In this document: piece after piece, positions 2,985 through 9,866 of the stretch
How positions within the stretch are numbered: position 1 is the stretch's first letter
Layout: the number at the start of each line of letters is the position of its first letter
Origin: Planctomycetota bacterium
GTDB lineage: Bacteria > Planctomycetota > Phycisphaerae > UBA1845
Direction of reading: 5' to 3'
Length of the DNA: 64,000 nt
Assembly (NCBI GenBank): GCA_024280855.1
Contig: JAJRPG010000062.1
Span: forward strand, 1 to 64,000
Notes under the pieces: model-generated
The model's input: only the letters and a program-made list of their open reading frames with translations
Database searches by the model: none
What the model was told of the DNA's origin: nothing
Made by a program: the position numbers and the translations under genes

Positions 2985-5360
2985 CTATGGACAACTCGGC
3001 ACACAAGTTCCGCCTGGGCATCCGACGACACCAAAACCAAACGGCTGTCCACTAAAGGCTCTCACTTCACGGAGGATATCGTTACTGGCAATAATGCCGT
3101 TCGGCACTTGACCATCGTTATCGACACGCGAAATATGAGGCGCTTGCGGATCAAGCTGGAACGCCTTAATCGTCATGAGTATATCCTGAGCGTTGACGAT
3201 TCCATCCGGAGCTGTCCAGACACCACTTATGAAAGCACCACCAATATCACCATAGTTTCGTGGCAATGGTACAGGCGTCGTATCGACCAGCAACGACGAC
3301 GAGAACGTCACATTATCCGGCGTCGATTCAACACTGTAGGTATTGCCCGGTACAACCTCGCAACCTCGAACGTGGATCACAGGATCAACCCACACGCAGA
3401 ACTCTGGATTAGGCACGAGTACGCCAAGCTTGCCAGCCGAGCCAGCATCTTGCAACGCACAGCTAACATACCACGGCGTGGCTGAACCAACCCGCGTCAC
3501 GCGATGCGCAACTGGGTTACCTTCGTTAGTCGCAGGATTGAAGGAAATATAACGATCCTTCTTCTGATCGAAAGGTACACCAACAGGATGTGGGTGAACC
3601 AAGCTTACGCATTTACAGCAAACACTAATCGTACCGTTCAGGTTCAATCCCTTGGAACCAAGGCAAATCTTCCCTGGAGGACATCCGCCCACACACTTTG
3701 GCGACGAACCGGCTTGCATCTGCACGATACCGCGAGTAGTTCCGCTAAATCCTGCTAATACACTACCAGGAGCGCCTTGGAAATCGATTTCGTAGAACAC
3801 ATCGAAGAAACTATCGACAGTCCACTGACCATCGCCACGAAGTGTCAACGTTGTGCCACCAGGACTTGGTAGCCCAAATGCATTTCCAGCACGAATCGTG
3901 AGGACATCAAAGTCAGGATCACCAAAGATCGACCCTTGCAAGCTGAACATATCCGTTGGGAACGTTTGAATAGGATCGCCCAACGTGCGAGGCCCGGTAT
4001 GAACCTCACTCAACACGGGAATCACAATCATTCTTGCGAACCCTGCCAGGTCTCCCGTACCCACCATGTTCATCACTAACGTCGAATCAAATTCTTCTCT
4101 TCGACCACCAAGATTGCCACCCTGCTCTGATACACGACTGATAAATTCAGCATGAATCGTATCAGCGAGAATCTCAGTGTTTGGTGGCAAGCCATCTACA
4201 ATCATATGGAACTCATCCGGACTCAGATATGGACAGCCAGGAGGCGGCAATGTAGCCGTACCTGTACCGTCATCCACAACCACACACTCAGCTTCCAATC
4301 GTCCACCGACAGGTGAAATATCGACCTGGCATTCACCAGTTGCTTTACAATCACAATCCGTAATTTGGTAGCTCTGTGTCAACGGTGTCCAAACGACACA
4401 TTGAGGCGAACAGGCTTCGAATCCGCCAACCTGACCAACACAAGCAACCTGCTCACAGGTCTGTCCGTCAGGCGCTGGCTCACAGACCTGTGGGCCACAA
4501 GCATCATCCACACCGTCATTATTCGCATCGCCAAGACATACTGAACCCGCACCTTGCGGCTTTCCGCCTTGCTCAACGCAACACAGCGGATCTATATTAC
4601 GACAATCCGAACCACCAACCGCGTTAGGCAAACAGCAGGCTTCAAGCTGACCAGCCGGTGCACATACGTCACCCGCCGCCTGCGCGACACCGCCCGCATT
4701 CTCACAGCAACGTGGGTCCATATCCACACACGAATCGCCCAGGCAACAGGCCACTAGCGGTAGACAAGGTCCACCGAACCACGTTCCCAAACAGTCCGAC
4801 TGCAACGTCACGGAACAACCCATACCATCACAGCACGCACCCGGATTACTTGCACATTCACAAGTCAATCCATCGACTGGCCCCGTGAACGATAATTCTG
4901 AAGCCCCTGTCGAAACACCATTGACGTGAATCAAGCATGGCTCATTCATACTTGGGCATAGGTTCTTACACGAAACATCAACGAAGGAAGTGCCAGGTAT
5001 TGTCGTCGTCGTAACTGGACCACATGTATCGTCCACACAGGCACAGGTGTTAGCCTGCGGAACCAGTCCGGTCGCGTCTTGAACAATACTGACCGAAGTC
5101 GCCTGACAGAAATTCGGCGTCGTCGGATCAGTCGTCTGACATTCTAACGCTTGCAGATCCTTGCAAAGCTGATCCGTCGCTGGCATAGGACACACCAACG
5201 GAGGATTAGTACATCCGTTAATGTTGACACAAGTCGTGCCCGCACCCTGCGGATTACCGCCCATATCACTACAGCACAACGCATCTATATCCAGGCAAGA
5301 CACGATACCTGCAGCATCGTCGATGCAACAAGCTTCAGTCGCACCATTAGGATCACATGC
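2985..5360 (-). CDS. Giant cysteine-rich secreted protein, C-terminal part after an in-frame TAG
   Basis: This is the same reading frame as 5361-9866, resumed straight after the TAG codon at 5361-5363. The first GTG lies at 5303, but it falls inside a repeat unit (...IVSCLDIDALCC) and has no Shine-Dalgarno, so independent initiation is unlikely. The part holds the last two Cys-rich units, then an acidic beta-rich region (about residues 330-540 from the GTG). It ends in a module of about 170 aa: KKDRYISFNPATNEGNPVAHRV, HVRGCEVVPGNTY, two dockerin-like segments (PDGIVNAQDILMTIKAF and ASNDILREVRAF), and FGFGVVGCPGGTCVPSCP. The same module closes the astacin protein at 51310-53472. It may be expressed only by readthrough, or be the dead half of a pseudogene. 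Confidence 0.75.
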   Translation of the reverse strand, partial: ACDPNGATEACCIDDAAGIVSCLDIDALCCSDMGGNPQGAGTTCVNINGCTNPPLVCPMPATDQLCKDLQALECQTTDPTTPNFCQATSVSIVQDATGLVPQANTCACVDDTCGPVTTTTIPGTSFVDVSCKNLCPSMNEPCLIHVNGVSTGASELSFTGPVDGLTCECASNPGACCDGMGCSVTLQSDCLGTWFGGPCLPLVACCLGDSCVDMDPRCCENAGGVAQAAGDVCAPAGQLEACCLPNAVGGSDCRNIDPLCCVEQGGKPQGAGSVCLGDANNDGVDDACGPQVCEPAPDGQTCEQVACVGQVGGFEACSPQCVVWTPLTQSYQITDCDCKATGECQVDISPVGGRLEAECVVVDDGTGTATLPPPGCPYLSPDEFHMIVDGLPPNTEILADTIHAEFISRVSEQGGNLGGRREEFDSTLVMNMVGTGDLAGFARMIVIPVLSEVHTGPRTLGDPIQTFPTDMFSLQGSIFGDPDFDVLTIRAGNAFGLPSPGGTTLTLRGDGQWTVDSFFDVFYEIDFQGAPGSVLAGFSGTTRGIVQMQAGSSPKCVGGCPPGKICLGSKGLNLNGTISVCCKCVSLVHPHPVGVPFDQKKDRYISFNPATNEGNPVAHRVTRVGSATPWYVSCALQDAGSAGKLGVLVPNPEFCVWVDPVIHVRGCEVVPGNTYSVESTPDNVTFSSSLLVDTTPVPLPRNYGDIGGAFISGVWTAPDGIVNAQDILMTIKAFQLDPQAPHISRVDNDGQVPNGIIASNDILREVRAFSGQPFGFGVVGCPGGTCVPSCP

Positions 5361-8300
5361 CTAACCAGCAGGCTGAACGGTTCCACCTTCTGCTACGCAA
5401 CATCGTGGATCAAGATCAATGCAATTACTACCGAAGCAACAAGGCTCAGGCGTCTGACAAGGACCACCGAACCATGAACCCTGGCAATCCGCCTGTAATG
5501 TTGTCAGGCAAATGCCAGTACCAACCTCACAGCATGTACCTGGGTTACTCGCACATTCACAAGTCAGATCACTAATTGGACCTGTATAAGTTTGCGAAAC
5601 ATTTCCAGTCGAAACGCCACCAATATGAATCAAGCATGGCTCATTCGCGTTAGGACAATTATTCTCACATGACACATCAAAGACTGTTGATCCCGGTATC
5701 TGTACAGCCGTGACCGGACCACAAGCACCTGGATCACACGCACAGACATTCGCCTGTAGCACCAAGCCCGTAGCATCCTGCACAATACTAATCGAAGTCG
5801 CAAGACAATCACTCAACGTCGTAGGATCATTTGTCATACAATCTGTAAACTGCAATGACTTACAGAGCGTATTCGTCGGTGGTATAGGGCAGAACAATGG
5901 TGGATTATTACATCCGTTAATGTTTACACACGTTGTGCCCGCACCCTGCGGATTACCGCCCATGTCATCACAACAAAGCGCATCCATATCCAAACAAGAC
6001 ACAATACCAGCCGCATCACTTAGACAACAAGCTTCAAATGCGCCGTTAGGATCACAAGCCGAACCAACAGGCTGAACCGATCCACCATTCGCTTTGCAGC
6101 ATCGTGGATCAAGGTCAACACAACGATCACCAAAGCAGCAAGGCTCTGGCGTCTGACAAGGACCACCAAACCACGCGCCGGTACAATCAGTTTGAAGCGT
6201 CTGACTACAAATTCCTGTAATCGGATCACAGCACGCACCTGGATTGCTAGCACATTCACAAGTTAATTCACCTGTAACTGGGGCCTGGAAATTCACAATA
6301 ATAGAACCTTGCGAAACACCATCGAGATGAACGAAGCATGGCTGGGTTGGATCCATGCACGCCTCCTCACAAGACACTTGAGTCGCAGTAGAACCAGCAA
6401 CATTTATCACTGTCACGGGACCACAAGTCGGATTCTCCGGTACACATGCACAAGTATTAGCAATGGTAACCGTGCCTCCCATACCGTTCGACACAATGCT
6501 AACTGAAGTCGGACGACATTCATCCGTTGTCAAAGGATCATTCGTCTGACATTCAGTAGCCTGGAGATCAACACATAATTTATCGTTCGCAGGCATAGGA
6601 CAGACCAACGGAGGGTTATTACACCCGTTAATGTTTACACATGTCGTATTGAGACCTTGCGGATTTCCTCCTTGCTCAATGCAACAAAGCGGAAACATAT
6701 CCAAACATACAAAAGGACTACCACCGAGGCAGCAGGCCTCAGGCGCGGAACTACAGGTAGTACCAGCAGGTTGAACCGTACCACCAGTAGCCACACAGCA
6801 ACGTGGATCAATAGTTTCGCAGAAATCACCGAAACAGCATGGCTCAGGTGTCAGACAAGGACCACCAAACCAAGTGCCCTGACAATCAGCCTGTAAGGTC
6901 TGCGAACAAATGCCCGTTACCGGTTCACAGCACGCGCCTGGATCACTCGCACATTCACAAGTCAAATCATCAATCGGACCTGAGAAAGACTGCGTGGATA
7001 CGCCAGTCGAAACACCAGCAACATGAATCAAGCACTTCCCAGCACCAGCCGGACAATTATTTTCGCAAGACACATCAAAGAAAGGTGTCCCCAAAACAGG
7101 CACAGCCGTGACAGGACCACAAACACCTGGAGTACACGCACACGTATTAGCCTGTAGCGCTAAACCAACTGCGTTCTGCACAATACTAACCGACGTCGCC
7201 AGACAATCTTCAAGCGTCGTAGGATCAGTCGTCAGGCAATCCGTAAACTGCAATTGCTTGCAAAGTTTATTCCCTGAAGGCAGCGGACAATACAACGGAG
7301 GATTAGTACACCCGTTAATGTTCGCACAGGTCGTACCTGCGCCTTGCGGATTGCCGCCTTGATTTTCGCAGCACAGCGCATCCATATCAACGCAGGACAC
7401 AATGCCAGCCGCATCACTTAGGCAACATGCTTCCTGCGCTCCATTAGGATCACAAGCTGTACCAGTAGGCTGAACAGTTCCACCTTCTGCTACGCAGCAA
7501 CGTGGGTCAAGGTCTACGCAATTATCACCAAAGCAGCATGGCTCAACCGGCAAACACGGGCCACCGAACCAAGTACCCTGACACTGCGATTGTAAACTTG
7601 AGAAGCAAATGCCAGTACCAATTTCGCAACAAGTTCCCGGATCACTCGCACATTCACAAGTCAGATCACTAATTGGACCAGAGTAAGACTGCGTAGTAAC
7701 ACCAGTCGAAATACCACCAATATGAATCACACACTTCCCAGCACCAGCCGGGCAATTATTCTCGCAAGATACATCAAAGAACGGAGTGCCCAGAATAGCT
7801 ACAGCCGTAACCGGACCACAAACGCCCGGATCACAAACACACATATTCGCTTGAATCTCTAAACCATTAGCAGCCTGCACAATGCTGATTGACGTCGCTA
7901 GACAACTGTCTTGCGTCGTGGGATCAGTCGTCAGACATTCCGTAAACTGCAATGACTTACAAATCGTATTCGTCGATGGAATCGGACAGTACAACGGAGG
8001 ATTGTTACACCCGTTAATGTTCGCACATGTCGTGCCAGCACCTTGCGGATTGCCGCCTTGACTTTCGCAGCACAACGCATCCATATCAACGCAGGACACA
8101 ATGCCAGTCGCATCACTTAGACAACACGCTTCCTGCGCTCCATTAGGATCACAAGCCGTACCAGTAGGCTGAACCGTGCCACCTTCTGCTGCGCAGCAAC
8201 GTGGGTCAAGGTCTACGCAATTATCACCAAAACAGCATGGCTCAACCGGCAAGCATGGGCCACCGAACCATGTACCCTGACAATCCGCCTGCAAGCTAGA

Positions 8301-9866
8301 GAGGCAAATGCCAGTACCAACTTCGCAGCAAGTTCCAGGATCACTCGCACACTCACATGTCAAATCATCAATCGGACCAGAGTATGTTTGCGTCACTACA
8401 CCAGTCGAAACACCAGCAATATGAATCACACATTTGCCAGCACCAGCCGGACAATTGTTTTCGCAAGACACATCAAAGAAAGGTGTACCCAAAACAGGCA
8501 CAGCCGTAACCGGTCCACAAACACCTGGGGAACACGCACACATATTAGCCTGTAGCGTTAAACCAGCCGCGTTCTGAACAATGCTGATCGACGTCGCCAG
8601 ACAATCGTCAAGCGTCGTAGGATCAGTCGTCAGACATTCTGTAAACTGCAATGACTTACAAAGCGTATTCGTAGGTGGAATAGGACAGAACAACGGCGGA
8701 TTGTTACATCCATTAATGTTCGCACACGTCGTACCCACGCCTTGCGGATTGCCACCCTGACTATCGCAGCACAGCGCATCCATATCAACGCAGGACACAA
8801 TGCCAGCAGCATCACTTAGACAACACGCTTCCTGTGCGCCATTAGGATCACAGGACGTGCCCGTAGGCTGAACCGTACCGCCATTAGCCTGACAGCAACG
8901 CGGATCAAGATCAATGCAACTATCGCCGAAGCAACATGGTTCAGGCGGCAAGCAAGGACCACCGAACCAAGTGCCCAGACAATCGGTCTGTAATGTCTGC
9001 GAACAAACTCCCGTAGCCGCGTCACAACACGCACCTGGATTACTCGCACACTCACAAGTGATAACTTCCTTCACAGGACCAAAGAACTCAATAGAGCTAG
9101 CCCCGACAGAAACACCATTCAAATGGATATAGCAAGGCTGCGTAGGATCAGGACAAGGCCCCGCACATCGAAAACTCATAATCCCGCCCGGCAACTCTGT
9201 TGTCAGCACAGGTCCACAGGTATCACCAGGAATCTCGCACGAACAAGTATTAGGCTCAGCTACAGGAACAAGCTGTCCATTAAAAACTTGCAACGTCACA
9301 GCCAACGGCAAACAAAGCTCAGGCGTTAGCGGATCATTACTAATACAATTAGTCATCTGCTGATCGGCACAAGCCTGAGTATTTTGTACTGGACAAAAGA
9401 CAGGTGGCATACAAGCTTCGTCAATGCCATCACCATCAGCATCGCAAACTGAGCCTTGACCCTGCGGGTTTCCACCAAGGTCTTTGCAGCATTTGGGTTC
9501 CATCTCCTGACAGAACACACCGCCTATAGCATCAGGCAAACAACAAGCCTCAGGCTGTACACAATCTTCAGGATGCCAAATGCCCTGACAGCAACTTTCA
9601 AATTGCATCGAACAGGAGCCGCTCGCATCACAGCAAGAACCAATAGGCCCGCAGTCTGTACCACCAATAAAGGTACCGCTGCAAACCGCAGGCTCAACGA
9701 TGCTGCAAGTTCCGCCCTGCTCACAGCAAGATCCGGGAACTGCCACAGCCGTCGAGGCCGTAAACCCCAAACTGGTAAACACCGATAACAAAATGACCGC
9801 ACGCCAACGACATATAGCCTGGCGACAACAACCATAGTTAAGCAACTTTGTCCGCAACATAAACAT
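5361..9866 (-). CDS. Giant cysteine-rich secreted repeat protein, N-terminal part ending at in-frame TAG
   Basis: A 1501-aa product if translation stops at TAG 5361-5363; about 2293 codons if the stop is passed. The start ATG at 9866 has GAGGAG at 9873-9878, a 6-base spacer. A signal peptide follows (basic start, AVILLSVFTSLGFTAS, ending STAVAVPGS). The mature protein is tandem units of about 233 aa (699 bp). Each holds ACCLSDAAGIVSCVDMDALCC, GGNPQGAGTTC, CGPVTAV, DVSCENNCP, TCECAS, GTWFGGPCLP, PCCFGDNCVDLDPRCC and GGTVQPTG. Cys reaches about 10%, so an extracellular disulfide-rich filament or coat is likely (inference). The TAG replaces a codon that reads TCG or ACN in sister units. No enzyme motif is seen. 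Confidence 0.85.
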   Translation of the reverse strand: MFMLRTKLLNYGCCRQAICRWRAVILLSVFTSLGFTASTAVAVPGSCCEQGGTCSIVEPAVCSGTFIGGTDCGPIGSCCDASGSCSMQFESCCQGIWHPEDCVQPEACCLPDAIGGVFCQEMEPKCCKDLGGNPQGQGSVCDADGDGIDEACMPPVFCPVQNTQACADQQMTNCISNDPLTPELCLPLAVTLQVFNGQLVPVAEPNTCSCEIPGDTCGPVLTTELPGGIMSFRCAGPCPDPTQPCYIHLNGVSVGASSIEFFGPVKEVITCECASNPGACCDAATGVCSQTLQTDCLGTWFGGPCLPPEPCCFGDSCIDLDPRCCQANGGTVQPTGTSCDPNGAQEACCLSDAAGIVSCVDMDALCCDSQGGNPQGVGTTCANINGCNNPPLFCPIPPTNTLCKSLQFTECLTTDPTTLDDCLATSISIVQNAAGLTLQANMCACSPGVCGPVTAVPVLGTPFFDVSCENNCPAGAGKCVIHIAGVSTGVVTQTYSGPIDDLTCECASDPGTCCEVGTGICLSSLQADCQGTWFGGPCLPVEPCCFGDNCVDLDPRCCAAEGGTVQPTGTACDPNGAQEACCLSDATGIVSCVDMDALCCESQGGNPQGAGTTCANINGCNNPPLYCPIPSTNTICKSLQFTECLTTDPTTQDSCLATSISIVQAANGLEIQANMCVCDPGVCGPVTAVAILGTPFFDVSCENNCPAGAGKCVIHIGGISTGVTTQSYSGPISDLTCECASDPGTCCEIGTGICFSSLQSQCQGTWFGGPCLPVEPCCFGDNCVDLDPRCCVAEGGTVQPTGTACDPNGAQEACCLSDAAGIVSCVDMDALCCENQGGNPQGAGTTCANINGCTNPPLYCPLPSGNKLCKQLQFTDCLTTDPTTLEDCLATSVSIVQNAVGLALQANTCACTPGVCGPVTAVPVLGTPFFDVSCENNCPAGAGKCLIHVAGVSTGVSTQSFSGPIDDLTCECASDPGACCEPVTGICSQTLQADCQGTWFGGPCLTPEPCCFGDFCETIDPRCCVATGGTVQPAGTTCSSAPEACCLGGSPFVCLDMFPLCCIEQGGNPQGLNTTCVNINGCNNPPLVCPMPANDKLCVDLQATECQTNDPLTTDECRPTSVSIVSNGMGGTVTIANTCACVPENPTCGPVTVINVAGSTATQVSCEEACMDPTQPCFVHLDGVSQGSIIVNFQAPVTGELTCECASNPGACCDPITGICSQTLQTDCTGAWFGGPCQTPEPCCFGDRCVDLDPRCCKANGGSVQPVGSACDPNGAFEACCLSDAAGIVSCLDMDALCCDDMGGNPQGAGTTCVNINGCNNPPLFCPIPPTNTLCKSLQFTDCMTNDPTTLSDCLATSISIVQDATGLVLQANVCACDPGACGPVTAVQIPGSTVFDVSCENNCPNANEPCLIHIGGVSTGNVSQTYTGPISDLTCECASNPGTCCEVGTGICLTTLQADCQGSWFGGPCQTPEPCCFGSNCIDLDPRCCVAEGGTVQPAG

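Follow-up and report, generated by a model that had tools for sequence, protein, structure and literature searches.

Does the single TAG inside a long gene for a cysteine-rich repeat protein reflect damage to the gene or a programmed signal? The gene, from an uncultured planctomycete, lies on the minus strand of the window, by which we mean the whole stretch of 64,000 nucleotides analysed here. A sequence-only reading had offered a recent mutation, a sequence error or programmed readthrough as explanations. Mutation or sequence error fits all of the findings given below, whereas programmed readthrough is left unsupported.

Results

Structure of the interrupted gene

Translation of the window frame from 9866 to 2985 (−) gave 2294 codons with a single internal stop, as the sequence-only reading had claimed. 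The other stop in this frame is its natural end at 2987-2985. The TAG splits the gene into 1501 residues before and 791 residues after it. The features are as follows:

5364..9866 (−): upstream part, 1501 aa, with a putative signal peptide (by eye) as well as six complete cysteine-rich modules, each of about 233 aa
5361..5363 (−): in-frame TAG, codon 1502 of the frame starting at 9866 (0-based index 1501)
4671..5360 (−): seventh cysteine-rich module, after the stop, with 68% identity to the preceding module
2985..4670 (−): rest of the downstream part, stop-free up to the natural end
2985..3665 (−): C-terminal domain with a dockerin-like tail, common to many proteins of this genome, with a weak match to NF041540 (dockerin_GC)

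By eye, ATG 9866 is preceded by a ribosome-binding-like GAGGAG and followed by the putative signal peptide. No signal peptide was seen by eye in the downstream 791 codons, in which GTG 5303 is the only early start listed.

Cysteine-rich modules: The gene body is a tandem array, so that homologous modules stand on either side of the TAG, which itself occupies a Ser/Thr site between two of them. Each module has 17 invariant cysteines (22 aligned modules). An AlphaFold2 model of one module (window 5364-6059) reached a mean pLDDT of 88.5. A structure search with this model found no confident relative in the PDB (best E 0.22), no Pfam family was convincing, and profile searches against solved structures gave no match. 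A match to Phostensin_N was rejected as a composition effect, as no stretch passes alone. The modules may possibly represent an undescribed fold or repeat family. That Pfam and the PDB offer no confident relative of them is an annotation gap and is separate from the finding on the stop.

C-terminal domain: The C-terminal signature, which had been described as intact after the stop, is indeed so. The domain is common to many proteins of the genus as well, and the downstream part has 47 matches in this genome, counting this gene's own repeat modules. The predicted model of the domain is poor (pLDDT 64.9). This protein scores 15.7 bits against NF041540, under the curated cut-off of 29; among 31 aligned members with this C-terminal domain, 14 match NF041540 at E <= 0.1 (best 8e-6).

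Comparison with the ortholog

The source genome (G000) is a draft of 112 contigs and is 96% complete. Of the named relatives, Phycisphaerae bacterium isolate OFTM182 (class Phycisphaerae, Planctomycetota) is the closest; it belongs to the same genus. Comparison with close relatives had been proposed as a check on the stop. The OFTM182 ortholog (L029, JAJDDW010000091.1) is intact, with one stop-free frame of 2740 aa, and the genes on either side of it are homologous to those next to the window gene (yidC-like and carbon-starvation-like by reading). In the codon-by-codon alignment, the TAG at 5363-5361 faces TCG. As the sister module at index 1268 also reads TCG, the proposed one-base step from TCG to TAG agrees with both sequences. 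The 791 residues after the stop are 80% identical to the ortholog.

We also compared the TAG position with the other module copies that could be read there. It is Ser or Thr in 14 of 14, namely in 5/5 of the window, which is what the earlier reading had stated for the sister repeats, in 4/4 of G001 and in 5/5 of G002. Here, L029 and L030 represent the same region of G001, apparently the OFTM182 genome, and were counted once. In G002, the second genome of the same genus, the contig ends inside the modules; the exact orthologous codon is hence known from one relative, which counts against a simple lesion.

The number of modules varies, with seven complete in the window (4671-9551) and five matched in G001 (L029 2856-11078; L031 was also compared). 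A long N-terminal region of the OFTM182 ortholog is missing from the window gene.

Selection before and after the stop

Compared with the ortholog, the gene has a dN/dS of 0.113 before the stop (933 codons) and 0.111 after it (791 codons; bootstrap 95% 0.084-0.139); two neighbouring genes have 0.127 and 0.050. With dS at about 1.2, the values are only roughly corrected, and because of the repeats the upstream alignment is less certain. The claim that coding quality is kept past the stop is thus upheld. Since the ortholog is a single frame and dN/dS is low on either side, it is ruled out that two long coding frames with one stop between them arose by chance. The near equality of the two values means that normal selection acted on the downstream part up to a very recent time. 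A selection-free downstream part would raise the ratio; from 2000 codon resamplings, the unconstrained share f of this lineage's branch is < 0.064 (one-sided 95% bound, simple model). The dN/dS result is compatible with a lesion that is recent, without effect or absent from the cell, and makes no choice among the three.

These values bear on the idea of an old pseudogene, or of a split gene whose downstream part is used independently. In favour of it, the frame has an interruption, and GTG 5303 could in principle serve for a restart. Against this, there is no second internal stop in 2294 codons, the constraint is unchanged past the TAG, the Val aligned to GTG 5303 is encoded in the ortholog by GTT (by eye), which is not a start codon, and the downstream part shows no signal peptide to the eye. 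We regard an old pseudogene or split gene as highly unlikely.

Decoding of TAG in this genome

TAG had been taken for an ordinary terminator in this genome. Among 295 open runs of >= 350 codons in 863 kb of the genome, TAG ends 102, TAA 109 and TGA 84, which bears this out. The gene for release factor RF1 (prfA) is present above its cut-off, and PylS is absent. A genome-wide search for a CUA tRNA, which had been suggested, came out negative: none of 45 matches to the Rfam tRNA model in the 96% complete genome has this anticodon. ARAGORN read the anticodon in 44 of the 45; the last, cut by a contig end, is CAU by eye. As 150 of 170 first-look candidates were scored and part of the genome is missing, a suppressor tRNA could have escaped, and this too is a point against a simple lesion.

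Reassignment of TAG to a sense codon in this genome would account for two conserved genes interrupted by TAG, the present one and a PAPS-reductase-family gene (see below). It is already contradicted by the 102 long frames that TAG terminates, by prfA and by the tRNA matches. In addition, internal stops of any kind are found in 0/38 ABC_tran and 0/7 Sigma54_activat matches of this genome. Hence, we consider reassignment extremely unlikely.

Programmed or leaky readthrough would yield a minority of full-length protein with the tail and a majority of shorter protein without it. In its favour, the frame past the stop is open throughout and under the same constraint as before it. The ortholog, however, has a sense codon at this position, and neither a CUA tRNA nor PylS accompanies prfA. 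Over the 104 nt that begin with the stop, folding appears unremarkable (z -1.48) and resembles that of the homologous stop-free stretch of the ortholog (z -1.10).

Other interrupted genes

Conserved internal stops in the family sharing the C-terminal domain were considered and rejected. Of eight flagged matches that were inspected, five proved to be natural gene ends with the alignment overrunning. The remaining three, all from G002, hold true internal stops with the tail still readable past the stop, and to this extent they speak for readthrough. In these proteins, however, the stop falls within the C-terminal domain, at sites different from the present one, and TAA accounts for two of the three. 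Taken together, we judge programmed or leaky readthrough at 5361-5363 to be very unlikely.

In the source genome, the only PAPS_reduct (PF01507) match (G000:C104:30638-31150; L182, also L126 near 10833) contains an internal TAG; the copies in both same-genus genomes are intact. A gene at G000:C109 near 74792 (L103 14792) has TAA where a 79% identical relative in G002 has a sense codon. The ABC_tran match at G000:C58:87666-88108 is in two adjoining pieces, and these coordinates suggest a frameshift.

A coding-score interruption scan of 863 kb of G000 returned 53 rows, of which all but two were judged by eye to be neighbour genes or shadow frames. Both lesions judged real are TAG, as a TAG-specific suppressor would also give, and this counts against a simple lesion; a third, found by homology, is TAA. 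The homology scan compared 859 kb of G000, of which only 172 kb found a match in the compared stretches of the other genomes. After filtering, G000 had 9 rows, G001 had 4 and G002 had 9, and by eye 2, 3 (one a broken insertion-sequence-like gene) and 5 of these, respectively, were judged to be real coding frames.

Further interrupted genes were found in G002. Both matches to methylmalonyl-CoA mutase hold a single internal stop, a sigma-factor-like gene has an internal stop, and one further gene is interrupted twice. For Sigma54_activat, one of 8 matches in G002 has an internal stop, compared with 0/10 in G001; for ABC_tran, the counts are 0/36 in G002 and 0/39 in G001. The positions, from scans and profile matches, are:

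G002 interrupted genes: L144 19408; C14:57913-59436; C83:73255-74793; C72:2862-3380; L140 11200 and 11491

The G002 draft may contain many consensus errors or strain mutations.

The stray stops in these genomes include all three stop codons. They are uncommon and scattered, and they favour neither this gene family nor TAG in any evident way. This is the pattern expected of private mutations, or of errors in the consensus of draft genomes. Oxidative damage was considered as a common cause, with all stops arising by G:C to T:A changes. It was dropped, as the relatives' codons for the PAPS reductase and the C109 gene point to C-to-T.

Discussion

The intact ortholog, the codon one step from TCG, the undiminished downstream constraint and the other scattered stops lead to the same conclusion. 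Very probably, the TAG is a lesion of a single base (TCG to TAG), isolated and not programmed, in a secreted repeat protein whose frame normally runs without interruption. It is either a real recent mutation or a consensus error. A real nonsense mutation of the sampled strain and a consensus error of the draft are about equally probable.

If the lesion is real, RF1 would end translation after residue 1501. The protein that the cell would then export is 1501 residues long and is missing both the seventh module and the dockerin-like tail at the C-terminus, presumably with loss of the tail's function. The downstream 791 codons are expected to give no working protein, because neither a signal peptide (by eye) nor a conserved restart is seen in them.

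There is a slim chance that some UAG codons are leaky in this lineage. In this case, the present gene and the PAPS-reductase-family gene would be made partly at full length, the former in a tail-less and a tail-bearing form. If readthrough were true, it would be an unusual route by which a single gene gives a surface protein in two forms. A lesion is the reading that we prefer, and on this reading the stop itself matters little, as it looks like a scattered mutation or a draft-genome error. It also calls for caution: a single stop in one draft assembly should not be taken as recoding.

Among known systems, the protein resembles the GC-type dockerin domain-anchored proteins (NCBIfam NF041540) in its C-terminal pair of dockerin-like segments with a Gly/Cys-rich tail after them (by eye). 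It differs from them in its score below the cut-off (15.7 vs 29 bits) and in its cysteine-rich modules, which have no confident Pfam or PDB match. With programmed stop-codon readthrough, the locus shares a single stop in frame with a long, conserved stretch after it. Unlike in that class, the stop is not conserved here, and no TAG-decoding machinery was found. Compared with an ordinary nonsense mutation, a recent pseudogene or a draft consensus error, nothing is distinctive: a one-base change makes the stop, the frame is otherwise intact, a close relative is free of the stop, and similar stops occur elsewhere. The stop itself is ordinary.
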